53,308 bases of DNA, from the NCBI RefSeq assembly GCF_025370785.1, contig NZ_JAMXFA010000043.1, positions 1 through 53,308 of the forward strand, in the 5' to 3' direction. The notes beneath the pieces are model-generated. The model had not been told where the DNA came from. It made no database searches and saw only the letters and a list, made by a program, of their open reading frames with translations. Both the position numbers and the translations under genes were made by a program. This DNA is from Laspinema olomoucense D3b. GTDB taxonomy: Bacteria; Cyanobacteriota; Cyanobacteriia; Cyanobacteriales; Laspinemataceae. This document shows positions 1,411 to 13,636 of this stretch, one piece after another; the stretch's first letter is position 1, and each line of letters opens with the position of its first letter.

Positions 1411-3933
1411 GTGAACGCAGAATCACTAGATTGGGGTCGATTGCAAAAAGCCTTGTCTGTCGAAGCACAACGCGGATTTACTGATGTTGTCGGCAGTCAA
1501 TATCGCTTTAGCGAATTTCTTCAAATTAGTTTAAAAGACTCCCCTGCCAATCTCGTCTCGGCAGATCTTCGCCGCTGGCAAAGCATAGCCGCAGAATTTG
1601 GTCGATATCCAGAACTGAACCTCGAAAAGCGACAAGCCTTAGTGTCAGATACCCGCAGGTTTCTTCTGGATATGGAACGAATTTGTAGCAAAACTCCACT
1701 TCCCCAGAATGGCACTGCCCAACAAAACCGACTTGTAGAACAACCTCCCACCTCACCGCTGCGATCGCGCAGCCTCTCCCCCGCAGAAACCCTCTCAACC
1801 ACCCCCTATAATACCACCCGTTCCACTTCCCCAGTCTCCCTCAACCAAGCCTTAAGTCAAGTTAGCGGCATTGGAACACGCAACGCCGACAAGTTAGCCA
1901 AATTAGGGCTTTATACTATCTACGATCTCCTATACAACTTCCCTCGGGACCATATTGATTATGCCCGCCAGGTGAATATCAAAGAACTGGAAGCTGGAGA
2001 AACAGTCACTATTATTGGGACAGTCAAACGATGTGATTGCTTTAGCAGTCCGCGCAATCCGAAATTAACTATTTTAAATCTGGTTATTAAAGATAGTACC
2101 GGGCAAATTAAACTCAGTCGCTTTTTTGCCGGAAGGCAAAGCAATCGCGGGTGGCAAGAAATTCAAAAGCGAACGTATCCGACAGGTGCAGTGGTTGCCG
2201 CATCGGGGTTAGTCAAAAGCAGTAAATATGGCGTCTCCCTGGATAATCCCCAAATTGAAGTGCTGGATGAAAGCGGCACTATTGAATCCCTTAACGTTGG
2301 ACGAGTTGTCCCCGTTTATGCATTAACCGAAGGGATTACCGCCGATGTTGTGAGAAAAGGGGTACAGAGTGTGATATCCCATGTGGGTTTACTGGGTGAC
2401 CCTCTGCCGGATAGCCTGCGATCGCGCTATCAACTCATGGGATTGCAGGATGCTGTTTCTCAAATCCACTTTCCGCGCGATCGGGACATCCTCGAAGAAG
2501 CGCGTCGCCGCCTCGTCTTCGATGAATTCTTCTACCTGCAACTCGGACTCCTCCATCGTCGCCAAGGGCTTCGAGACACCCAAACCGGCGCAATCTTATC
2601 CGGGAAAGGCAAATTAATCAATAAATTTTATAAACTCCTCCCCTTTAAACTCACCCATGCTCAACAGCGAGTCATTGCCGAAATTCTCGAAGACTTGCAA
2701 AAACCCAAACCCATGAACCGCCTCGTCCAAGGGGATGTCGGTGCCGGTAAAACCGTCGTTGCCGTCGTTGCCATCTTAGCCGCCATTCAAGCCGGATATC
2801 AAGCCGCATTCATGGCACCCACGGAAGTATTAGCCGAACAACATTATAAAAAATTAGTCAGTTGGTTTAACCTCCTGCATCTCCCCGTCGAACTCCTCAC
2901 CGGGTCCACAAAAACGGCCAAACGCAAACAAATTCTCCCCCAATTAGAAACCGGAGAATTACCCGTTTTAGTCGGGACCCATGCCTTAATTCAAGACCCG
3001 GTAAACTTCCACAAACTGGGACTAATCGTCATCGATGAACAGCATCGATTTGGAGTAGGACAACGGGCGAAACTGCAACAAAAAGGGGAAGATCCTCATG
3101 TTTTAACCATGACCGCCACTCCCATTCCCCGAACCCTGGCACTTACCTTACATGGGGATTTAGATGTCAGTCAAATCGATGAATTGCCACCGGGAAGACA
3201 AGCGATTCAAACCACGATTTTCTCGGGGAAAGAACGCACCCATGCTTATGATTTAATCAAGCGGGAAGTGGTGCAAGGACGGCAAGTTTATGTGGTGTTG
3301 CCATTAGTGGAAGAATCGGAGAAATTAGATTTAAAATCGGCAATAGAAGAATATCAAAGACTGCAAGAGGTGATTTTCCCAGAATTTAAAGTGGGATTGC
3401 TGCATGGCAGGATGAGTTCAGCAGAAAAAGAAGAGGCGATCGGACTATTTCGCGATGGATATACCCAAATCTTAGTCTCTACCACCGTAGTTGAGGTGGG
3501 GGTAGACGTTCCTAATGCCACCGTCATGCTCATCGAAAATGCCGAACGATTTGGATTATCACAATTGCACCAATTGCGAGGAAGAGTTGGACGGGGTGCA
3601 GAGAAATCCTATTGTATCTTAATGACCCATCCCAAAGCCACTACCGATGCGCGCGATCGCCTCAACGTCATGGAACAATCACAAGATGGGTTTTTCATCG
3701 CTGAAATGGATATGAGATTGCGCGGACCCGGAGAAGTCATGGGAACGAAACAATCGGGACTCCCTGATTTTGTCTTAGCGAGTTTAGTTGAGGATAAAGA
3801 AATATTAATTTTAGCGAGGGATGCAGCAGAAAAAGTTATTAAGAAAGACCCAATCTTGGAAAGATGGCCGGTGTTAAAAAGTGAGTTAGATAAGCGGTAT
3901 GAGAAGTTGTTAGGCGGGGCGATTTTGACGTAG
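1411..3933 (+). CDS. recG: ATP-dependent DNA helicase RecG
   Basis: RecG is a superfamily 2 helicase that remodels stalled replication forks and branched DNA such as Holliday junctions. The 840 residues show a cyanobacterial N-terminal extension (about 1-145), the wedge/OB-fold region (about 150-290), Walker A GDVGAGKT at 441-448, the DEQH box at 542-545, TATPIPRT at 568-575 and a C-terminal QLRGRVGRG helicase motif. The protein is longer than E. coli RecG (about 690 residues) because of the N-terminal extension. The start is GTG at 1411, preceded by a purine-rich GGGGGGAAA ribosome-binding region. It converges on the STAND operon, with a hairpin between the two. Confidence 0.97.
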   Translation: MNAESLDWGRLQKALSVEAQRGFTDVVGSQYRFSEFLQISLKDSPANLVSADLRRWQSIAAEFGRYPELNLEKRQALVSDTRRFLLDMERICSKTPLPQNGTAQQNRLVEQPPTSPLRSRSLSPAETLSTTPYNTTRSTSPVSLNQALSQVSGIGTRNADKLAKLGLYTIYDLLYNFPRDHIDYARQVNIKELEAGETVTIIGTVKRCDCFSSPRNPKLTILNLVIKDSTGQIKLSRFFAGRQSNRGWQEIQKRTYPTGAVVAASGLVKSSKYGVSLDNPQIEVLDESGTIESLNVGRVVPVYALTEGITADVVRKGVQSVISHVGLLGDPLPDSLRSRYQLMGLQDAVSQIHFPRDRDILEEARRRLVFDEFFYLQLGLLHRRQGLRDTQTGAILSGKGKLINKFYKLLPFKLTHAQQRVIAEILEDLQKPKPMNRLVQGDVGAGKTVVAVVAILAAIQAGYQAAFMAPTEVLAEQHYKKLVSWFNLLHLPVELLTGSTKTAKRKQILPQLETGELPVLVGTHALIQDPVNFHKLGLIVIDEQHRFGVGQRAKLQQKGEDPHVLTMTATPIPRTLALTLHGDLDVSQIDELPPGRQAIQTTIFSGKERTHAYDLIKREVVQGRQVYVVLPLVEESEKLDLKSAIEEYQRLQEVIFPEFKVGLLHGRMSSAEKEEAIGLFRDGYTQILVSTTVVEVGVDVPNATVMLIENAERFGLSQLHQLRGRVGRGAEKSYCILMTHPKATTDARDRLNVMEQSQDGFFIAEMDMRLRGPGEVMGTKQSGLPDFVLASLVEDKEILILARDAAEKVIKKDPILERWPVLKSELDKRYEKLLGGAILT

Positions 3934-3944
3934 GAGAAAACAAA

Positions 3945-3976
3945 GGGGTGAGGAGGGCGATTAAGCCCTCTTCCCC
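3945..3976. terminator. Bidirectional hairpin between recG and the STAND gene
   Basis: GAGGGC at 3953-3958 and GCCCTC at 3965-3970 form a perfect stem with loop GATTAA. Flanking GGGG (3945-3948) and CCCC (3973-3976) can extend it. It lies in the 53-bp gap between two convergent genes, where a shared terminator is expected, although the T-tract is weak. Confidence 0.5.
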
Positions 3977-3986
3977 TCATCCCAGA

Positions 3987-6900
3987 TTACGGATTTTCCG
4001 GCCAACAGCGATCCAGTAACTCCTGAATTTGCAATTTGCGTCCTTTACTGTCTTGTGGCGGCGTTTCAAATACGGCTAATCCGTGAAAAATAGGGAGATG
4101 ACCCAAGGGCGGATTCTCAAAATTGGGTCTAGCATAACCCAGATAGAACCAGCGATTTGTTGTATCATTAAATCGTTCTTCAACTAACCATTTAGAATTT
4201 AACTGTTTCCATCCGACGCGATCATACATGGTTTCCCAATTTTTTCCGGTTTCTTGATAAATTTTGTTCTGAACACTCACTCCCAAGGTCCCCCCACTCG
4301 CAGCAACCCACAAATCATCAATGAGTGTTAATTCTTGACAAGAGAACTGTTTATACTCATCAGGATTGAAATATCCTTGCTTTTCAGATTCGGGACCTGC
4401 TATCGAAAGGAGTAATTCATAAGTCTCCTTATCCGCTTTTTCCCATTCCCTGTTTGCTAAATGTTCCTGGAGAATACTATAGTCAAAGGGGGTTTGGGAG
4501 TCTGCAATTAAAGTAGACAAGACTCGACGGACGCTTACCGGATCGCGATTCCGAGCAAAAGTGATAACTGTTCTTTTTTCAGCTTCTAATTTAATGGTCA
4601 ACTCTTCTAAGCGTTGTGCATTTTCTACCGCTTGATTTTTTTGAGCTTCGAGTTGTTGATTAACTTGTTCTCTCTCATCCTGTTGGGTTTTTAAATCCGC
4701 AGCTAATTGACGAGATTGAACGGCTAAAACCACTGCACCACCAGCTAAAATAGCTAAACCGATGCCAGCGGCAAAGGTGGCTTTAAGCTGCCGTTTTAAT
4801 ACTAAATTTAACTGGCGATCGCTTTGTTCCTTTTCAGCTTGAGCCTTTTTCAAATCCTCCTTAAGTTTAGCGATGTTTTCCTCATTTTTCGCACGCACAA
4901 AAGACACCAAATAGTCATGAACTAATTGATATCGATTCGCCGGAGATTCAGGTAACATAAATACCAGACCTGACTTAACAAATACATAAAGTATTAAATT
5001 CAACCGCTCAGGTTCATCCAGCAAATTAGTCGTTAATCCTTTCAAGTCCGTTTCCAAGTCGGCCCGAGTTTTGAGAGGACGAGTATAATTTTCATCGGTG
5101 AGCAAATATAAAATCAGTTCAGCAAACTCTTTATTTTCCTTGCCACAATCTCGGACCACTTCTTCTAAATATCGGTGGACCAGTTGTTCTTTCGGGTTAG
5201 GTGCAAGTTGCCGATATTCTGCCAAGGTTGTCATATTATCGCTTTGTAGTTGTGCACCGACAATCTGCAACTCAATGGGACGGACTGCTTTTAACTTATT
5301 AGCTAAATCTGTGACAACTGCCTCGATTAATCGGCCTTCTAAAGGGAAATGCGCCCGATCGCTCAAACTGCGAATAATGTCCACCGCATCTGCCGGTAAA
5401 AAATTTCCGACGGCATATAGCGTATTCTTACTCAGGATATCCGAGTTGATTGCCTCAAATCCAGGTTGGGAATTATAGTGCAACAAATAATGAATATAAT
5501 CCTCTCGGAGAGAGAGTACCACCTTAACAAAAGGAATCTGAAAACAACTCGCCAAAAACTCAAAGAATTTCTGGCGCTTTTCGGATTCCTTACAAACAAA
5601 GAAAAACTCTTCAAATTGATCGAAAATCAGTACGGTTAGCAGGTGATTCGATTCATTTTGACGCAACTGTTCCAGGACCCTATCCACCGTATCAGGAATG
5701 GCGTCAATCTGCATCCCTCGTTGTGCCAGGGCCTCACGCAGTAATTGACCCAAGGTTTTCACCCAATCCGTGTATAGGCGTTGGGAAACGGGTAATATAT
5801 CCCGATCGCCAATCCCAGTTTGTTTCAATGCTGGCAGCAATCCCGCTTGCACCAGAGAACTTTTCCCCACCCCCGAAGGACCGTGAATCACCGTTAATTT
5901 GTATTGGGTACTGCCGATCCGTTGGATTAACCGTTCTAGATCCTTTTGTCGTCCCGAGGCGAGAATTTCTCGGGCTACACTTCCGGGAGACTCCATTGGC
6001 ATCGGTTGCGATCGCGCTTGTCGTTGCGGTTCCAACCGTCCTGCACCAATGAACGCCCGCAACCCAAATTGCTGCTCAATTGAGAGTCGTTCTTGCTTGC
6101 GATCAAATGCGGACACATACTGCGATTGCTTGTAATATAGCGATCGTAACTCCTCCAAAATTTCAATATATAAATGTGGATTATCCGCCGGGTCACCCTT
6201 TACCGCCTCTTCCAAACGATCGTGGGCCTCCTCTTCTTCCCCTAACTGCCGCAAACTTCGCGCCAACAGCAGCAAATATAATCCCTGGTGCTGTTGTCCT
6301 TGTTGGGTGTTGGTGACTAAAATTTCTAGGGCCTTTTCGGCGAGTTCTTTCGCATGGTCCCAGTTCTGCTGATGTAGGGCAACTTGTGCTAAAAATCCAT
6401 AATCTCGCGCCAACTGCACGGTATTCCCTGATGTTTGGTGTAATTTTATCGCACTTTGCGCCAGTTTTTGCAAACTGGCATAATCATTCAACTGCCGGAA
6501 GGTTTCCCCAAGCTGACCGATAAATTGGGCTACTAAGTCCGGTCTTCCTGCTGCATCGAAGGAATCTAGGCACTGTTGAAACACCGACTGTGCTTGCTTC
6601 CAGCAGAGCTCACTATTGCCTCGATCCAGTTCTGCCGTGCGAGCGTAACACAATCCGATATGATAAAGAACTGCTGCGGCCCGTTCCTGAGCCCCTTTGG
6701 CATCTTGTTGTTGCCACAATTGCAAACTGTGCTGATAGTAATTTAACGCCTCATCTATGCGATCGCACGTATAAGCCTCGCGCCCCCAGACGAACGGCAA
6801 AGTCGCGGCTAAGGTAGGATTCAAGGGCTGACGAGCTTTTTCCAAATCCTGCAAAGCTAAGGTCATCTCAAACGGATAGCGCTTGCGAAAAATCTCCTTA

Positions 6901-7448
6901 TTGGCCACAAAACGTTGATTGCCCGCAGCAAATACCTCCACAAACAGGCGATCGGTCTCTTCTGTCAGCGCGGCTAACAAATCCTCTGGTGCGATCGCAA
7001 ATTCACTCAAACTCGCCCAACTTTCAAAATCCGGGGCTAACCGCGTCAACTGAACTGATACCTCATCATTGATCCAAAAAATGACGGGAAAGGGGCAGTT
7101 TTTTCTAAATTCCTCTCTCACCTGGTTGAGAGAAGTCAGCACCACATCTAAGGCAGCCGCTGATTCCAAACCAAAAATCATCACAGCATCCGGAATTTCA
7201 TCACCGAGGCGCTCTCTCAAACTGGAATATACTTGTTTTACCGTCGGTTCTAGGACAATCTCCCGGATATTTAAGGTACATTGTTCTCGCAGTTGTTGCA
7301 CCAGGACATCACGCAACGTCCCATAATTACACCGGACCAACATCAGCTTAAATTGCCCTCGGGACATTTCCACCGCCCAGATCAGTTCGGCCAACGCCTG
7401 CTGATTTTGATTGATGGCATCCCCCTCAACGATGATAGTTTCACTCAT
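3987..7448 (-). CDS. TPR-STAND NTPase with C-terminal GUN4-like domain
   Basis: The protein has 1153 residues. Residues 1-170 form a P-loop-less alpha/beta domain ending in a PVIFW...APDFESW stretch of the kind seen in STAND-type proteins. Residues 220-460 are TPR-like helices. An AAA/STAND module follows, with Walker A GPSGVGKSS at 523-531 and Walker B LIFDQFEEFF at 607-616. A coiled coil (about 855-885), one membrane helix (about 892-910) and a second coiled coil (913-965) come next. Residues about 989-1130 match GUN4 in order: a helical start, the GYFNPDE and GVSVQ segments, DRVGW and GHLP. GUN4 domains bind porphyrins such as Mg-protoporphyrin. Its ATG overlaps the upstream ATPase stop (ATGA). 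A membrane-anchored signalling STAND protein sensing a tetrapyrrole is inference; the domain calls are from motifs. Confidence 0.85.
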   Translation of the reverse strand: MSETIIVEGDAINQNQQALAELIWAVEMSRGQFKLMLVRCNYGTLRDVLVQQLREQCTLNIREIVLEPTVKQVYSSLRERLGDEIPDAVMIFGLESAAALDVVLTSLNQVREEFRKNCPFPVIFWINDEVSVQLTRLAPDFESWASLSEFAIAPEDLLAALTEETDRLFVEVFAAGNQRFVANKEIFRKRYPFEMTLALQDLEKARQPLNPTLAATLPFVWGREAYTCDRIDEALNYYQHSLQLWQQQDAKGAQERAAAVLYHIGLCYARTAELDRGNSELCWKQAQSVFQQCLDSFDAAGRPDLVAQFIGQLGETFRQLNDYASLQKLAQSAIKLHQTSGNTVQLARDYGFLAQVALHQQNWDHAKELAEKALEILVTNTQQGQQHQGLYLLLLARSLRQLGEEEEAHDRLEEAVKGDPADNPHLYIEILEELRSLYYKQSQYVSAFDRKQERLSIEQQFGLRAFIGAGRLEPQRQARSQPMPMESPGSVAREILASGRQKDLERLIQRIGSTQYKLTVIHGPSGVGKSSLVQAGLLPALKQTGIGDRDILPVSQRLYTDWVKTLGQLLREALAQRGMQIDAIPDTVDRVLEQLRQNESNHLLTVLIFDQFEEFFFVCKESEKRQKFFEFLASCFQIPFVKVVLSLREDYIHYLLHYNSQPGFEAINSDILSKNTLYAVGNFLPADAVDIIRSLSDRAHFPLEGRLIEAVVTDLANKLKAVRPIELQIVGAQLQSDNMTTLAEYRQLAPNPKEQLVHRYLEEVVRDCGKENKEFAELILYLLTDENYTRPLKTRADLETDLKGLTTNLLDEPERLNLILYVFVKSGLVFMLPESPANRYQLVHDYLVSFVRAKNEENIAKLKEDLKKAQAEKEQSDRQLNLVLKRQLKATFAAGIGLAILAGGAVVLAVQSRQLAADLKTQQDEREQVNQQLEAQKNQAVENAQRLEELTIKLEAEKRTVITFARNRDPVSVRRVLSTLIADSQTPFDYSILQEHLANREWEKADKETYELLLSIAGPESEKQGYFNPDEYKQFSCQELTLIDDLWVAASGGTLGVSVQNKIYQETGKNWETMYDRVGWKQLNSKWLVEERFNDTTNRWFYLGYARPNFENPPLGHLPIFHGLAVFETPPQDSKGRKLQIQELLDRCWPENP

Positions 7449-8800
7449 GAAAGCAACTCCTTCGCTTCTGCCAACAGGGGATTAACATCAAACCAAGACT
7501 CGGACGCATCTCGATACTCGTAAACGAACATACTGCGAATTAAGGTCTGATATCCATCATCACCGGCCACCTTTTTCTCCTCTCTCACCCGCCGCAATAA
7601 TTTCCACTCCGCATCGGTTACCGCTAAAATCCGGGCATTGCGATAGAGGGAAATTACATCCTCTAGGGTTTTGCCAGTCAGGGGCAATTGCCGTTGTTTT
7701 TTAATCCCATCGTTGAGCATTCGCAGCACATTCCGTACATGACCCCCACTGACTCGGCATAAACGATCAAGGGTCTGGTGGTTCTCAAAAATGACGGTCA
7801 TTTTTTCCAGGCGCTGTTCGGGGGTGAGATCCGGAAAAGCTCGGGCGAGGAGCATTTGGCGCAGGAGGTTCATGCCTTCCGTATGTTCACTGCCATCTCG
7901 GGATTGGACTGGCACCATCGGCAGAACATGGGGTTCAACGATAAAGCGCTCAATCAGGGTCCCGAAGTCATTGGAGAATCGTAAGGCGAGGGGAATCGTA
8001 TAAACCAGGTGGCAGTGGAGCGCTCGCAACTGTTCACCGCGATCGACAAATAGGTATTCTTGTTGGGGGCGTCCCCAAGGTTTGGGGGAACTATCCACCT
8101 TGTCCAGATTATCGACGATCGCCACCAGTCCTTTTTTGCCCTGCTGCTTCAGCTTGGCGATCGCCGGTTCGAGCAATTCTTTATTAATCGCCTCAATAAT
8201 CCCATTGGTTTGGGGTTCCAGATATCCTCTTAATTTACTGCGCAGATCGGGACTGGCTTTCACCTTAGCAGTAATTTTGGCAATCCCCATTGCGACAACC
8301 GTCACCCCTTCCTGATTGGCGGTGATTTGAGCTGGACCTATCGTGCCGCCTACTTCATCTAATTTAATTTCTGTTTGTAACAGTTTCGCCGCCCCTTGGA
8401 GGATGCTTTTCAGGCGTTTGGGTTCTTCTAGGGTGAGGCGATCGAGACTTTCACTGACTCGTTTGGCGATCGCCAACAAAATATCCCCCACATCCACGTC
8501 GCCCATTTCCAAGTCTTTAGACGACTCGAAATAGACCACGTGAAAGCCCTCCCGTTCTAACTCCGCCTTGAGACGCAATAACTCCGTGGACTTCCCGCAG
8601 CCGATATGTCCTGTGAACAATTGGCAGGTGGGTTCTTCTGGGGACCAGAGGGTAATATTATCCCTTAAATCCTCAATAATTTGGCCCCCGCGCACGGAGG
8701 AAAAATCAATATAATATTGCTGATCCAGTTCCGAATCTTCGACAAACAGAGTCTTACTCGGATTTGTAGCATCAAAGAATTGCTTTAAATCAACCATCAT
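7445..8800 (-). CDS. AAA-type P-loop ATPase, partner of the STAND-GUN4 protein
   Basis: This 451-residue soluble ATPase has Walker A GHIGCGKST at residues 64-72 and a Walker B-like LVAIVDNLDKV at 225-235. The helical C-terminal half carries a conserved-looking SGGHVRNVLRML segment typical of AAA+ lid domains. The family is recognisable by its opening DFSSVRGG and FTGHIGCGKST motifs and, as I recall it, occurs in cyanobacteria next to TPR-STAND proteins. Its stop overlaps the next start by 4 bp, so the two proteins are translationally coupled and probably work together. Two ATG codons lie in tandem at the start (8800 and 8797). The substrate is unknown. Confidence 0.85.
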   Translation of the reverse strand: MMVDLKQFFDATNPSKTLFVEDSELDQQYYIDFSSVRGGQIIEDLRDNITLWSPEEPTCQLFTGHIGCGKSTELLRLKAELEREGFHVVYFESSKDLEMGDVDVGDILLAIAKRVSESLDRLTLEEPKRLKSILQGAAKLLQTEIKLDEVGGTIGPAQITANQEGVTVVAMGIAKITAKVKASPDLRSKLRGYLEPQTNGIIEAINKELLEPAIAKLKQQGKKGLVAIVDNLDKVDSSPKPWGRPQQEYLFVDRGEQLRALHCHLVYTIPLALRFSNDFGTLIERFIVEPHVLPMVPVQSRDGSEHTEGMNLLRQMLLARAFPDLTPEQRLEKMTVIFENHQTLDRLCRVSGGHVRNVLRMLNDGIKKQRQLPLTGKTLEDVISLYRNARILAVTDAEWKLLRRVREEKKVAGDDGYQTLIRSMFVYEYRDASESWFDVNPLLAEAKELLS

Positions 8801-9282
8801 AATGCTGGCCCTGTTAATGAGGGATAAAACCCGCCTGATGGGGGTTAGGGGCTAGATGCCGACCTGATGGTTATTTTCAGCTTGAGATCTGAGTCTTCGG
8901 GACAGTTTAAATAAGATTAATGCAAACTGTTTTATGCTTCTGTCTTACTCTCTTCAAACTGCAATTGTCAAGAGATAAATTAATAAGTTTTAATAAAAAT
9001 AAGCGGAGTGAATACACTTATAAAAAGTAGTGTTTAAATGAGATATTGTAGAAAATCGAGACAGGGTAAAGACTTTACAAACCAGTAACCCAAACAACTG
9101 CCTCAAGTGAAATGTGAAGAAAGGATAAAGCCCTGAAACGGGTCTCCTCAGCCCTAAAACAGTTAGGGGCCAAAGACTAAGAACTATGGGTTCGCATCAA
9201 TAGGGCTTACCACAACTTCCCAGACTCTAGCCCCTAACTTCAGGGTTGAGGCAACTACATTGCTAAAGAGAGCAAAATGTAA
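8801..9282. other. Intergenic region upstream of the ATPase-STAND operon
   Basis: No gene is seen. It should hold the operon promoter (right-to-left) and the 3' end of the cpcG transcript. A small hairpin, CCCTAA/TTAGGG with a 5-nt loop, lies at 9152-9168. A longer inverted repeat pairs 9161-9170 with 9230-9239. The central part (about 8930-9060) is AT-rich, as expected for a promoter, but no -35/-10 pair stands out. Confidence 0.5.
9161..9239. repeat. Inverted repeat downstream of cpcG
   Basis: AGTTAGGGGC (9161-9170) and GCCCCTAACT (9230-9239) are exact reverse complements 59 bases apart. The left arm can instead pair with CCCTAA at 9152-9157. Position just after cpcG suggests an mRNA 3'-end structure or terminator, but there is no T-run. 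Confidence 0.45.
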
Positions 9283-10044
9283 TTACTTCTTACGGGGAAC
9301 CAACGCTTCGTAATTCATATTGAACGTAGAAACGCGGGTCGGGGGGTTACCTTTCCCGTTGTTCAGGTTACGAGCCATATCCATATAGAGGGACGGATCC
9401 CCTGCGCGAGCCACCTTGTCTTGGGGAACGTAGCGACGCACTTGGCTTTGCCAGATGATTTGTGGGAAGCCCAACTGAGCGCGATGGTATTCGCCATAAC
9501 GGGGGGTCTTCAGGTTAAAGGGAGTTTCACCTTTAGCCTGTTGGGGTAGAATCCGGCGACGCTGATAAGGAACCGTGTTGTAACCAAAGCTGTTCAGGTA
9601 TTCTTCGCTATCGAGTACGGCATCGATAAAGCCTTGGACACCCTTAGTCGCGATCACGATAGACCATGCAATTTTTTCGCGTTCGTTGTAAACGTCGCGT
9701 CCTAAAATGCGTTGGACGCAAATTTCGGCGAAACGGTAGTTGCTGTTGGTCTCGTAGTTGAGCCGAATGAAGGCATCCGAGGTAGCCAAAGCGCGAATGA
9801 AATCACGAACTGTGATTTGACCATATCTCAGTTGAGATTCCGCGAAGGTTTGGCGGTTGCTCTTGAGGATTTGGTGTTCGCTGAACACTTGGCGGTAGCT
9901 GGCCCAAATTACCTCATCCATCTCGGTAGGAGAGGGGAGGTTTTCGGTGGTATAGATTTTGGGTTGCTCATCGCTTCCCACTTCATATCCAGCAACCCGC
10001 TGGTTTTGGCTCTTAGGAGCGTACTGTAACAAAGGTAATGCCAC
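9283..10044 (-). CDS. cpcG: Phycobilisome rod-core linker polypeptide CpcG
   Basis: CpcG anchors phycocyanin rods to the allophycocyanin core of the phycobilisome on the thylakoid surface. The 253-residue protein opens with [21 protein letters not shown], a classic CpcG start, followed by the PBS linker domain (about residues 15-150) with the [16 protein letters not shown] and [11 protein letters not shown] stretches. The C-terminal region has the [13 protein letters not shown] segment of core-binding CpcG proteins. The length is usual for the family. The start is GTG, with GGAG about 8 bases upstream. It lies downstream of the cpcS lyase and the HExxH gene, on the same strand, with a 265-bp gap before it. 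Confidence 0.95.
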
Positions 10045-10940: not shown

Positions 10941-11552
10941 TTACCAGCCGAAGGCGGATTGGAATTGGGGGGTGGTTCGGGCATTCTTGTCAGAGTCAGA
11001 GGGGGAATCACTGGTACCTGAGTTGGATTCGACCTGGATCCGGCTTTCGCTACAGAATGAAGCCGTACTGAACCCCCCAAACCGGGTGACGGTACTCGTC
11101 CGCAGTCGCAGGTCCGGGCTGGCAAACCAGAACCGTTCGACAACACTCATGGTTTCATATTCCGTCACTAGAATCAGACCTTCTTCGTCATCCATTTCAT
11201 ATAGACCCGCTACGGGTACTATCTCGGCATAACCCCGCTCTCTGAGGAGTTTTCCAGCTTTGGGGTTATCCTCTTCCGGGACCAAGGCAAAGACGGTGGA
11301 ACCCGAGTGATTTTCATCATTCTGGTCCCATTCCATTGAACCCGCCCAGGTGACAAAGGCTCCACCGACTGCACGTTGCGGATCGATTTGATGTAACTCG
11401 CAGATTTCTACAACTTGGGGATGATCTTTATCTAAGGTTTCCACCCGGATTTCTGAATCTCCTAGTTCGGCTCGTCGAAAAGCAAGGTGATGGGTCGTGC
11501 GCTGCGATCGCCACTTCCCTGCACTCCGGCGAAAAAACTCCATTGCGTCCAT
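10941..11552 (-). CDS. cpcS: CpcS/CpeS-type phycobiliprotein lyase
   Basis: This lyase attaches phycocyanobilin to phycobiliprotein cysteines (mainly the Cys-82 site in phycocyanin and allophycocyanin). The 203-residue protein opens with MDAMEFFRRSAGKWRSQRTTH and continues with GSTVFALVP, RGYAEIVPVAG, YETMSVVERFWFASPDLRLRTS and FGGFSTASFC, the landmarks of the lipocalin-fold CpcS family. The last ~25 residues are a Ser/Asp-rich tail beyond the usual end. The ATG at 11552 has GGAG about 9 bases upstream. It is transcribed divergently from nblA, with a palindrome in the shared 229-bp spacer. Confidence 0.93.
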   Translation of the reverse strand: MDAMEFFRRSAGKWRSQRTTHHLAFRRAELGDSEIRVETLDKDHPQVVEICELHQIDPQRAVGGAFVTWAGSMEWDQNDENHSGSTVFALVPEEDNPKAGKLLRERGYAEIVPVAGLYEMDDEEGLILVTEYETMSVVERFWFASPDLRLRTSTVTRFGGFSTASFCSESRIQVESNSGTSDSPSDSDKNARTTPQFQSAFGW

Positions 11553-12324: not shown

Positions 12325-13437
12325 GTGGTTCAAGCACCCGTATCCAAAATTTCCCATCCATCCGCAGCAGTGGCCGAGAATGACGCCGCCAGAGGGACAA
12401 CCGAAACCCTGGGCGAGTCGCTCAAGCAATTGGCCGATCGCATTATTGCTGGGCATCGCCTCACCCGAGAAGAAGCGATCGCCCTGACTCAAATTGAAGG
12501 TCAAGACTCCATCCTGCTGCTGTGCGAAGCCGCAGATGCCGTCCGTCAAGCCTGCTGCGGTAATACCGTTGATTTATGTAGCATTATTAACGTCAAATCC
12601 GGCAATTGCTCGGAGAACTGTGGCTTTTGCTCCCAATCCGTGCATCATCCCGGCACCGATTCGCCTGTTTATGGACTCAAACCCCGGGACGAAATTCTCG
12701 CCCAAGCCAAAGCCGCAGAATCCGCTGGCGCCAGCCGGTTTTGCCTCGTGTCCCAAGGCAGAGGACCCAAATACAGCAGTCCCAAATCAAAAGAATTTGA
12801 AGAGATCCTGGCAACGGTCCGCCAGATTATTGAGGAGACCAACGTCAAACCCTGCTGTGCCTTGGGTGAAGTGACGCCAGAACAAGCTAAAGCCTTAGCC
12901 GAAGCTGGGGTGACGCGCTATAACCATAACTTAGAATCCTCGGAAAACTTTTACCCAGAAATTGTCACAACCCATACTTGGGGCGATCGCGTCGCCACTA
13001 TCAAAAATCTCAAAGCCGCAGGCATCCAAGCCTGTAGTGGAGGGATTATTGGCATGGGAGAAAGCTGGGAAGACCGGATTGATTTAGCCTTAGCGGCGCG
13101 GGAATTGGAAGTGGAATCTGTCCCCCTCAACTTGCTCAATCCCCGGTCCGATACGCCTTTAGGCAATCTACCCAAACTTGATCCCTACGAAGCCTTAAAA
13201 GCGATCGCCATCTTCCGCCTCATCCTCCCCGAGCAAATTATTCGTTATGCTGGAGGACGAGAATCGGTCATGGGCGAACTCCAACATTTAGGACTCAAAG
13301 CAGGCATCAACGCCATGTTAATCGGTCACTACCTGACCACCCTGGGCCAACCCCCCGACCAAGACCGTGCCATGCTCGAAGAATTGGGACTACAAGGCAA
13401 TGAAGCCCCAGTCCCCAAGGGAAAGACTGACGATTAG
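12325..13437 (+). CDS. bioB: Biotin synthase
   Basis: BioB is a radical SAM enzyme that inserts sulfur into dethiobiotin, the last step of biotin synthesis. The 370-residue protein carries the cluster motif C95-x3-C99-x2-C102 within [14 protein letters not shown], followed by YNHNLESS and the [10 protein letters not shown] stretch. Length is slightly above the usual 320-350 because of about 25 extra N-terminal residues. The start used is GTG 12325; a shorter protein cannot be excluded. The stop codon directly abuts a 9-nt tandem repeat, and the biotin transporter gene follows. Confidence 0.96.
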
Positions 13438-13440
13438 GGA

Positions 13441-13525
13441 GGATGGGGAGGATGGGGAGGATGGGGAGGATGGGGAGGATGGGGAAGATGGGGAGGATGG
13501 GGAGGATGGGGAGGATGGGGAGGAT
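13441..13525. repeat. 9-nt tandem repeat GGATGGGGA, nine copies
   Basis: Nine back-to-back units run from 13441 to 13521, one with a single change (AGATGGGGA at 13486), and a partial unit follows. The array begins three bases after the bioB stop. It pairs with the C-rich block at 13559-13636, so bioB-bioY transcripts could fold into a long GC hairpin. Confidence 0.9.
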
Positions 13526-13558
13526 ACGCAATTTTGTAGTCATGACTTCAGTCGTTTC

Positions 13559-13636
13559 CTCCCCCACCTCCCCTATCTCCCCCACCTCCCCCATCTCCCC
13601 CATCTCGATGGCGGTCTCCCCCATCTCCCCCATCCA
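13559..13636. repeat. C-rich block complementary to the GGATGGGGA array
   Basis: Imperfect CTCCCCCAT and CTCCCCCAC units form the pyrimidine counterpart of the preceding purine array, about 35 bases after its end. Confidence 0.7.

Follow-up and report, generated by a model that had tools for sequence, protein, structure and literature searches.

How did a cyanobacterial protein with a STAND nucleotide switch come to end in a GUN4 domain, and what might that domain do there? This question is raised by a two-gene operon at positions 3987-8800 of a 53,308-nucleotide stretch of Laspinema olomoucense D3b (contig NZ_JAMXFA010000043.1 of assembly GCF_025370785.1), hereafter the window. An earlier note on this DNA had described two genes coupled by ATGA, and had proposed that the second one encodes a membrane-anchored switch gated by a chlorophyll or bilin precursor. 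Both open reading frames (ORFs) are indeed present and overlap by ATGA. We propose, at roughly even odds (a probability of about 0.5), that the pair is a two-protein, NLR/Apaf-1-like switch with an exchangeable C-terminal recognition module, GUN4 having replaced a WD40 domain in two strains. Its parts are as follows.

7445-8800, minus strand: gene 1, a P-loop ATPase of ORC/STAND-like type (451 residues), with Walker A at residue 64 and a Walker-B-like motif, LVAIVDN, at 225.
3987-7448, minus strand: gene 2, a 1153-residue protein whose start lies inside the gene 1 stop (ATGA).
6894-7448, minus strand: gene 2 residues 1-185, a predicted inactive domain of AAA+/P-loop fold, without Walker A.
6009-6893, minus strand: gene 2 residues 186-480, TPR region, with the best TPR_12 stretch at 352-418 (Pfam); bounds approximate.
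4902-5954, minus strand: gene 2 residues 499-849, nSTAND1 NTPase, Walker A at 523 (Pfam).
4509-4898, minus strand: gene 2 residues 851-980, linker with the membrane helix at 892-910; this segment was swapped along with the C-terminal domain.
3990-4508, minus strand: gene 2 residues 981-1153, GUN4 domain (Pfam 984-1087), porphyrin loop diverged.

The GUN4 domain occupies the place of a WD40 propeller, by a natural swap at the same locus. A phycobilisome linker gene, gene 1, gene 2 and recG follow each other in the same order in six stretches that span the locus (the window, L197 and L211-L214). In L211-L214, gene 2 encodes 1611-1612 residues, is 78-79% identical to that of the window over the first 870 residues, and ends in WD40 repeats, as detected by Pfam in L211 and by a local hidden Markov model (HMM) in all four. 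Counted in windows of 25 residues, 15-22 positions are identical before about residue 851, where the STAND domain ends, and 3-8 after it, as measured in L211 and L214; L212 and L213 look alike to them at this breakpoint in the alignment. The WD40 form also carries a 186-residue ORF between gene 2 and recG (L211:1907-2467, minus strand), in which Pfam found no family and the start of whose DNA aligns in L212-L214; this ORF is absent from the GUN4 form, where about 53 bases separate gene 2 from recG. In two further genomes (G386 and G390), the contig end falls inside gene 2. The presence of WD40 in place of GUN4 at the same locus suggests that the C-terminal end of gene 2 is an exchangeable sensor, so that the sensor role given to it in the earlier note is retained, by inference from four orthologues.

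This two-gene system is widespread among cyanobacteria. Gene 1 homologues were found at E 1e-10 in 83 of 386 cyanobacterial genomes, often in several copies (mostly with at most four candidates scored per genome). Two sets of loci, which share genomes, were examined: 80 stretches chosen by hand from the list of gene 1 matches, and the best 80 of 523 candidates encoding a relative, in which the genus loci bear the names Laspinema (L217, L218) and Oscillatoria (L219, L220). Gene 1 is followed by a gene 2 with the same N-terminal domain for 75 of 86 gene 1 ORFs in the hand-chosen set plus the window (three are cut by an end, eight show neither), and for 73 of 82 in the best-80 set (five cut, four neither). 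Seven of 72,556 plasmid records carry gene 1; in the one inspected, the next gene measures 5.5 kb and is annotated 'ribosome assembly protein 4', a name used for WD40 proteins. In a set of 112 distinct gene 2 homologues whose 3' end is closed, WD40 repeats number two or more in 88, GUN4 is present in two, and neither module is detected in 22, many of which are short ORFs that stop within the STAND domain or shortly past it. One of these 22 ends in PAS-HisKA-HATPase-REC (L066:4587-6128, plus strand), a second kind of C-terminal replacement. These 112 proteins come from loci picked by gene 1 similarity, and remain from 140 with both the N-terminal and STAND domains after removal of 21 open 3' ends and seven duplicates (identical last 300 residues). 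The HMM used for scoring was built on a single orthologue (seven of its repeats), so that the count of 88 is a minimum; a further three proteins show one repeat. WD40 being the most frequent C-terminus, the simplest view is that GUN4 is the derived state.

The two GUN4 carriers are the window and Laspinema palackyanum D2a (G388, L217), whose gene 2 proteins are 84% identical over the full length. Using the last 283 residues as a query, no other full-query match appeared among the matches listed (39 relatives and 386 genomes, with at most six candidates scored per genome). The earlier note had called for such a survey, and had held that absence of the domain from most homologues, with no sensor equivalent, would speak against it. 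The two genes do usually occur together and WD40 provides the equivalent; GUN4 itself is absent from most homologues.

That the C-terminus belongs to the GUN4 family by fold, as the note had claimed, is supported by sequence comparison: PF05419 matches residues 984-1087 with an E-value of 4.2e-30 (105.2 bits for a cut-off of 29.2), and phmmer with residues 980-1153 retrieved five GUN4-type chains from the PDB, from 7e2r (1.1e-18) through 4ykb, 1z3x and 1z3y to 1y6i (8.6e-13), plus one ribosomal chain at E 0.2. A chance match is ruled out by these scores. Of 19 positions compared (Synechocystis numbering), the domain retains W150, V162, W189 and the motif G205-H206-L207, but has Ala for R214, Pro for F132, Tyr for V135 and Tyr for R113; it thus lacks several porphyrin-binding residues of the family. 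R113, F132 and V135, which reportedly belong to the porphyrin site in the Synechocystis GUN4 structure, were placed by ungapped alignment; for R214, residues were counted off from the GHLP motif, which is conserved. As the loop is shorter and its alignment uncertain, W192 and F196 are not assignable. R214 is kept in five distinct true GUN4s (four PDB proteins and the strain's own), but in only 2 of 58 other GUN4 rows, being absent from 56, and F132 is kept in none of the 58, near-duplicates included. In PMC8967248, porphyrin binding is ascribed in part to Syn F196 and R214 (At F191 and R211); changes are described for a W192A mutant, and At R211A alone lowers the affinity for Mg-protoporphyrin 7.5-fold.

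These replacements, together with the last-named mutant, deprive of support the idea that the switch is gated by a chlorophyll or bilin precursor. Gating of the STAND switch by a tetrapyrrole bound to GUN4, be it Mg-protoporphyrin, protoporphyrin or a bilin, is possible but not favoured, and we hold it unlikely. The homology to GUN4 is clear, both in Pfam and in the PDB, the GHL motif, W150 and W189 are kept, and fused GUN4 domains have been proposed to sense tetrapyrroles (Kaur et al., 2020; PMC7159879). Moreover, if the other accessory GUN4 domains, most of which also lack R214, bind porphyrin otherwise, the argument from residues weakens. Against this gating stand, besides the replaced residues and the shorter loop, the orthologues without GUN4 at the same locus, and a helix topology which, as judged by eye with the positive-inside rule, would put the C-terminus of gene 2 outside the cytoplasm. 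As several known porphyrin-site residues are lost, the ligand of the GUN4 module in the proposed switch is probably not Mg-protoporphyrin but a protein or some other molecule.

GUN4 might also serve as an adaptor, in the manner of effector-associated domains (EADs), through which the STAND receptor is linked to further proteins of the cell that carry GUN4. The strain indeed encodes 12 GUN4 stretches, including a true GUN4 of 246 residues (E 2.5e-63), so that gene 2 is not its sole GUN4 source. Among the matches listed, the four closest outside relatives of the C-terminus (L198-L201, from other genomes) join GUN4 to a protein kinase. A paired-domain logic of this kind has been described for EADs (Kaur et al., 2020; PMC7159879). 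Conversely, Pfam found no second GUN4 in the contig, hence none in the operon, and the WD40 domain of the orthologues is no EAD; such an adaptor role is unlikely. A TIR-WD40-GUN4 protein of 1667 residues (L202:4842-9845, minus strand) and NACHT-GUN4 proteins (L204, L205, L207) were also observed. Their existence indicates that fusion of GUN4 to STAND proteins probably took place on more than one occasion.

The core that carries these modules has the makings of a switch. Its nSTAND1 domain (residues 499-849) matches Pfam with an E-value of 9.8e-33 (114.7 bits for a cut-off of 27.1), and presents a Walker A, GPSGVGKS, at 523, kept in all 124 STAND domains of the homologues, and a Walker B, VLIFDQ, at 606. 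By profile and motifs it qualifies as a STAND domain, and nucleotide-driven oligomerisation is predicted. A TPR_12 match (E 2.4e-10) and a hydrophobic segment at 892-910 (Kyte-Doolittle mean 2.37), flanked by coiled coils assessed by eye, complete the TPR, STAND and membrane-helix layout set out in the note. A search of residues 1-916 against PDB sequences gave no match. The P-loop-less N-terminal domain that the note had recognised was modelled over residues 1-180 from 50 rows with a mean pLDDT of 89.5. Foldseek matched the model best to RAD17-RFC (E 8e-5), then to RuvB and ORC, with Avs4 at rank 38 and TnsC at rank 47. Since Walker A is present in none of the 50 aligned rows, this fold would be that of an inactive, AAA+-like domain.

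Gene 1 is a P-loop ATPase, as the note had claimed: its Walker A, GHIGCGKS, lies at residue 64 and is present in all 45 aligned rows. Pfam detected no family above its cut-off, and comparison of its profile with PDB sequences gave a best E-value of only 0.0082. A model from the 45 rows (mean pLDDT 88.3) has Cdc6/Orc1, RdrA, NLRP3 and CED-4 among its Foldseek matches; for this model and the gene 2 N-terminus alike, the rows shown have TM-scores of 0.26-0.56 by query length, which denote fold classes, not memberships. Five loci (L068, L070, L071, L073 and L295) hold gene 1 without gene 2, on the same strand and upstream of a shikimate dehydrogenase-like ORF (aroE, by eye).

From a mechanistic point of view, gene 2 would be the receptor, its inactive AAA+ domain and TPRs forming an N-terminal docking part for gene 1, followed by nSTAND1 as a nucleotide-driven switch, the membrane helix and the C-terminal recognition module. 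The ORC/CED-4-like ATPase of gene 1, its usual partner, probably helps to load or hold the switch. Upon recognition, the STAND domain would be freed, form oligomers and exert its effect at the membrane. This output is proposed because no enzyme was found and a hydrophobic 19-mer follows the STAND domain in 88 of 102 homologues.

Sequence evolution of the locus is consistent with a recognition function. In three strain pairs, synonymous divergence (dS) amounts to 0.58-0.90 in gene 2, 0.25-0.64 in gene 1 and 0.10-0.37 in flanking ORFs (leaving aside three that overlap longer ones, at 0.04-0.41), so that gene 2 is 2-6 times as diverged at synonymous sites as the genes around it. Within the genus, dS of the gene 2 core lies at 0.68-1.05 in 14 of 15 pairs, L211-L212 giving 0.31, as against 0.26-0.35 for recG and 0.10-0.26 for the linker gene over all 15. 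A comparison of the two GUN4 carriers gives a dS of 0.41-1.45 over codons 76-900 of gene 2; codons 1-75 (0.33), the part beyond codon 900 (0.25-0.33) and gene 1 (0.25) stay at background. Gene 2 is therefore a mosaic, in which the carriers differ more over most of the core than over their common GUN4 cassette; such high divergence suits a recognition locus that exchanges alleles. In nucleotide trees, gene 1, the gene 2 core and the linker gene group the two carriers (support 1.000, 1.000 and 0.988), whereas recG does not (node support 0.156); owing to this conflict, a single swap inherited by descent is indistinguishable from a single swap followed by exchange.

The GUN4 domain itself is identical at 162 of 174 residues in the two carriers, with a ratio of nonsynonymous to synonymous divergence (dN/dS) of 0.12 at dS 0.29, which points to purifying selection. 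This bears on two further explanations. The fusion might be a functionless accident of recombination, as just two carriers were found and gene 1 is interrupted in one of them; the low dN/dS makes this very improbable. Plant NLRs carry integrated domains that act as bait. By analogy, GUN4 might be an integrated decoy, a look-alike that has lost its ligand residues and baits invaders attacking chlorophyll or pigment synthesis. The exchange among orthologues of the sensor domain for a host-regulator domain, the fold kept without its ligand residues, the purifying selection and the diverged gene 2 would agree with this. We nevertheless consider a decoy a very unlikely explanation.

Several observations weigh against the proposed two-protein switch. 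The high dS may come from the import of diverged alleles rather than from selection, and that of gene 1 between the carriers is at background. A lone helix would set GUN4 and the STAND domain on opposite sides of the membrane, which complicates cytosolic sensing. Pfam revealed no effector enzyme in either protein, so that the output is deduced from the helix. The TM-scores of the predicted folds are modest. No PADLOC defence model matched the whole gene 2 protein, weak ATPase hits being obtained otherwise. The PD-T4-6 model matched residues 980-1093 alone (window 4170-4511, minus strand), and this match is confined to profile positions 301-411 of 450, so that this defence model seems to include GUN4-bearing proteins. 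In D2a, gene 1 (L197:3746-5101, plus strand) has an in-frame stop after 258 codons, and the pair may not work there. One stop was found in six gene 1 matches among those listed from the 386-genome search; such stops fit an accessory system that is often lost. Copies of gene 2 are also often short or split, and 15 of 149 ORFs bearing its N-terminal domain close without a STAND match.

With regard to known systems, the likeness to the Mg-chelatase cofactor GUN4 is one of fold by sequence; the gene 2 domain differs in R214, F132, V135 and R113, in its shorter loop and in its attachment to a STAND protein. Accessory cyanobacterial fusions of GUN4 with kinase, caspase, trypsin or TIR domains (Kaur et al., 2020; PMC7159879) likewise use it as an extra signalling module and mostly lack R214, but gene 2 encodes a TPR-nSTAND1-membrane protein with an ATPase partner, which acquired GUN4 by exchange at one locus. 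The nSTAND1 proteins of predicted conflict systems (PMC8195603, PMC10907252) share the switch and a variable C-terminal module; gene 2 differs from them by its ATPase partner gene and inactive AAA+-like N-terminus, and by having no EAD, protease or C-type lectin in Pfam. Avs and bacterial NACHT systems share a STAND switch, repeats and C-terminal sensor logic (PMC10907252), and Avs4 is among the fold matches of the gene 2 N-terminal domain, but gene 2 has no N-terminal effector enzyme by Pfam and no PADLOC model over its whole length. The iSTAND ternary system (Kaur et al., 2020) was rejected, as neither MoxR nor vWA was detected in gene 1 by Pfam at E up to 1 and the neighbours are the linker gene and recG. 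The name Npun2340/2341 refers to two adjacent genes of Nostoc punctiforme, and the present pair occurs in N. punctiforme NIES-2108 (L237). The two Npun genes may be the same pair. An Npun2340/2341 STAND family is named in PMC8195603. Neither the gene pair nor the swap is described in the passages used of PMC7159879, PMC8195603, PMC2853523, PMC8967248, PMC10811720, PMC9500459 and PMC10907252.

The note had also stressed that the pair lies directly downstream of phycobilisome genes on the same strand. This is true in the window, where a PBS_linker_poly gene (9283-10044, minus strand; labelled cpcG by eye) precedes gene 1 by 482 nt, with a CpeS-like gene beyond it (10941-11552, minus strand). The linker gene was found at E <1e-80 in all eight genus genomes searched, and adjoins WD40 alleles of the pair likewise. 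In the best-80 set, it adjoins the pair in all four loci of the genus and in none of the 76 others, 59 of which include at least 2 kb upstream; none was seen beside the pair in the 80 hand-chosen stretches, which mostly include about 500 bases upstream (three without gene 1). A functional tie to phycobilisomes through this neighbourhood was therefore set aside, since the linker gene stands beside the pair only in this genus, and the neighbourhood looks incidental. A sigma-70 promoter scan of 8700-9400 found none (1.4 expected), and an Rfam scan of 3900-9400 gave no match. Elsewhere in the window, 9-bp tandem repeats, GGGAGGATG and CCTCCCCCA, lie at 13437-13525 and 13558-13606, after a biotin synthase-like ORF (by eye).

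What gives these findings their value is the swap at a single locus. As a rule, the sensor module of a STAND protein is deduced by comparing distant proteins; here, one locus of a single genus bears WD40 or GUN4 on one conserved core, and offers a natural pair for testing the sensor hypothesis. As most of the 58 other GUN4 rows compared also have replacements at residues linked with the binding of porphyrin, the proposal that such domains report on tetrapyrroles (PMC7159879) merits a binding test.

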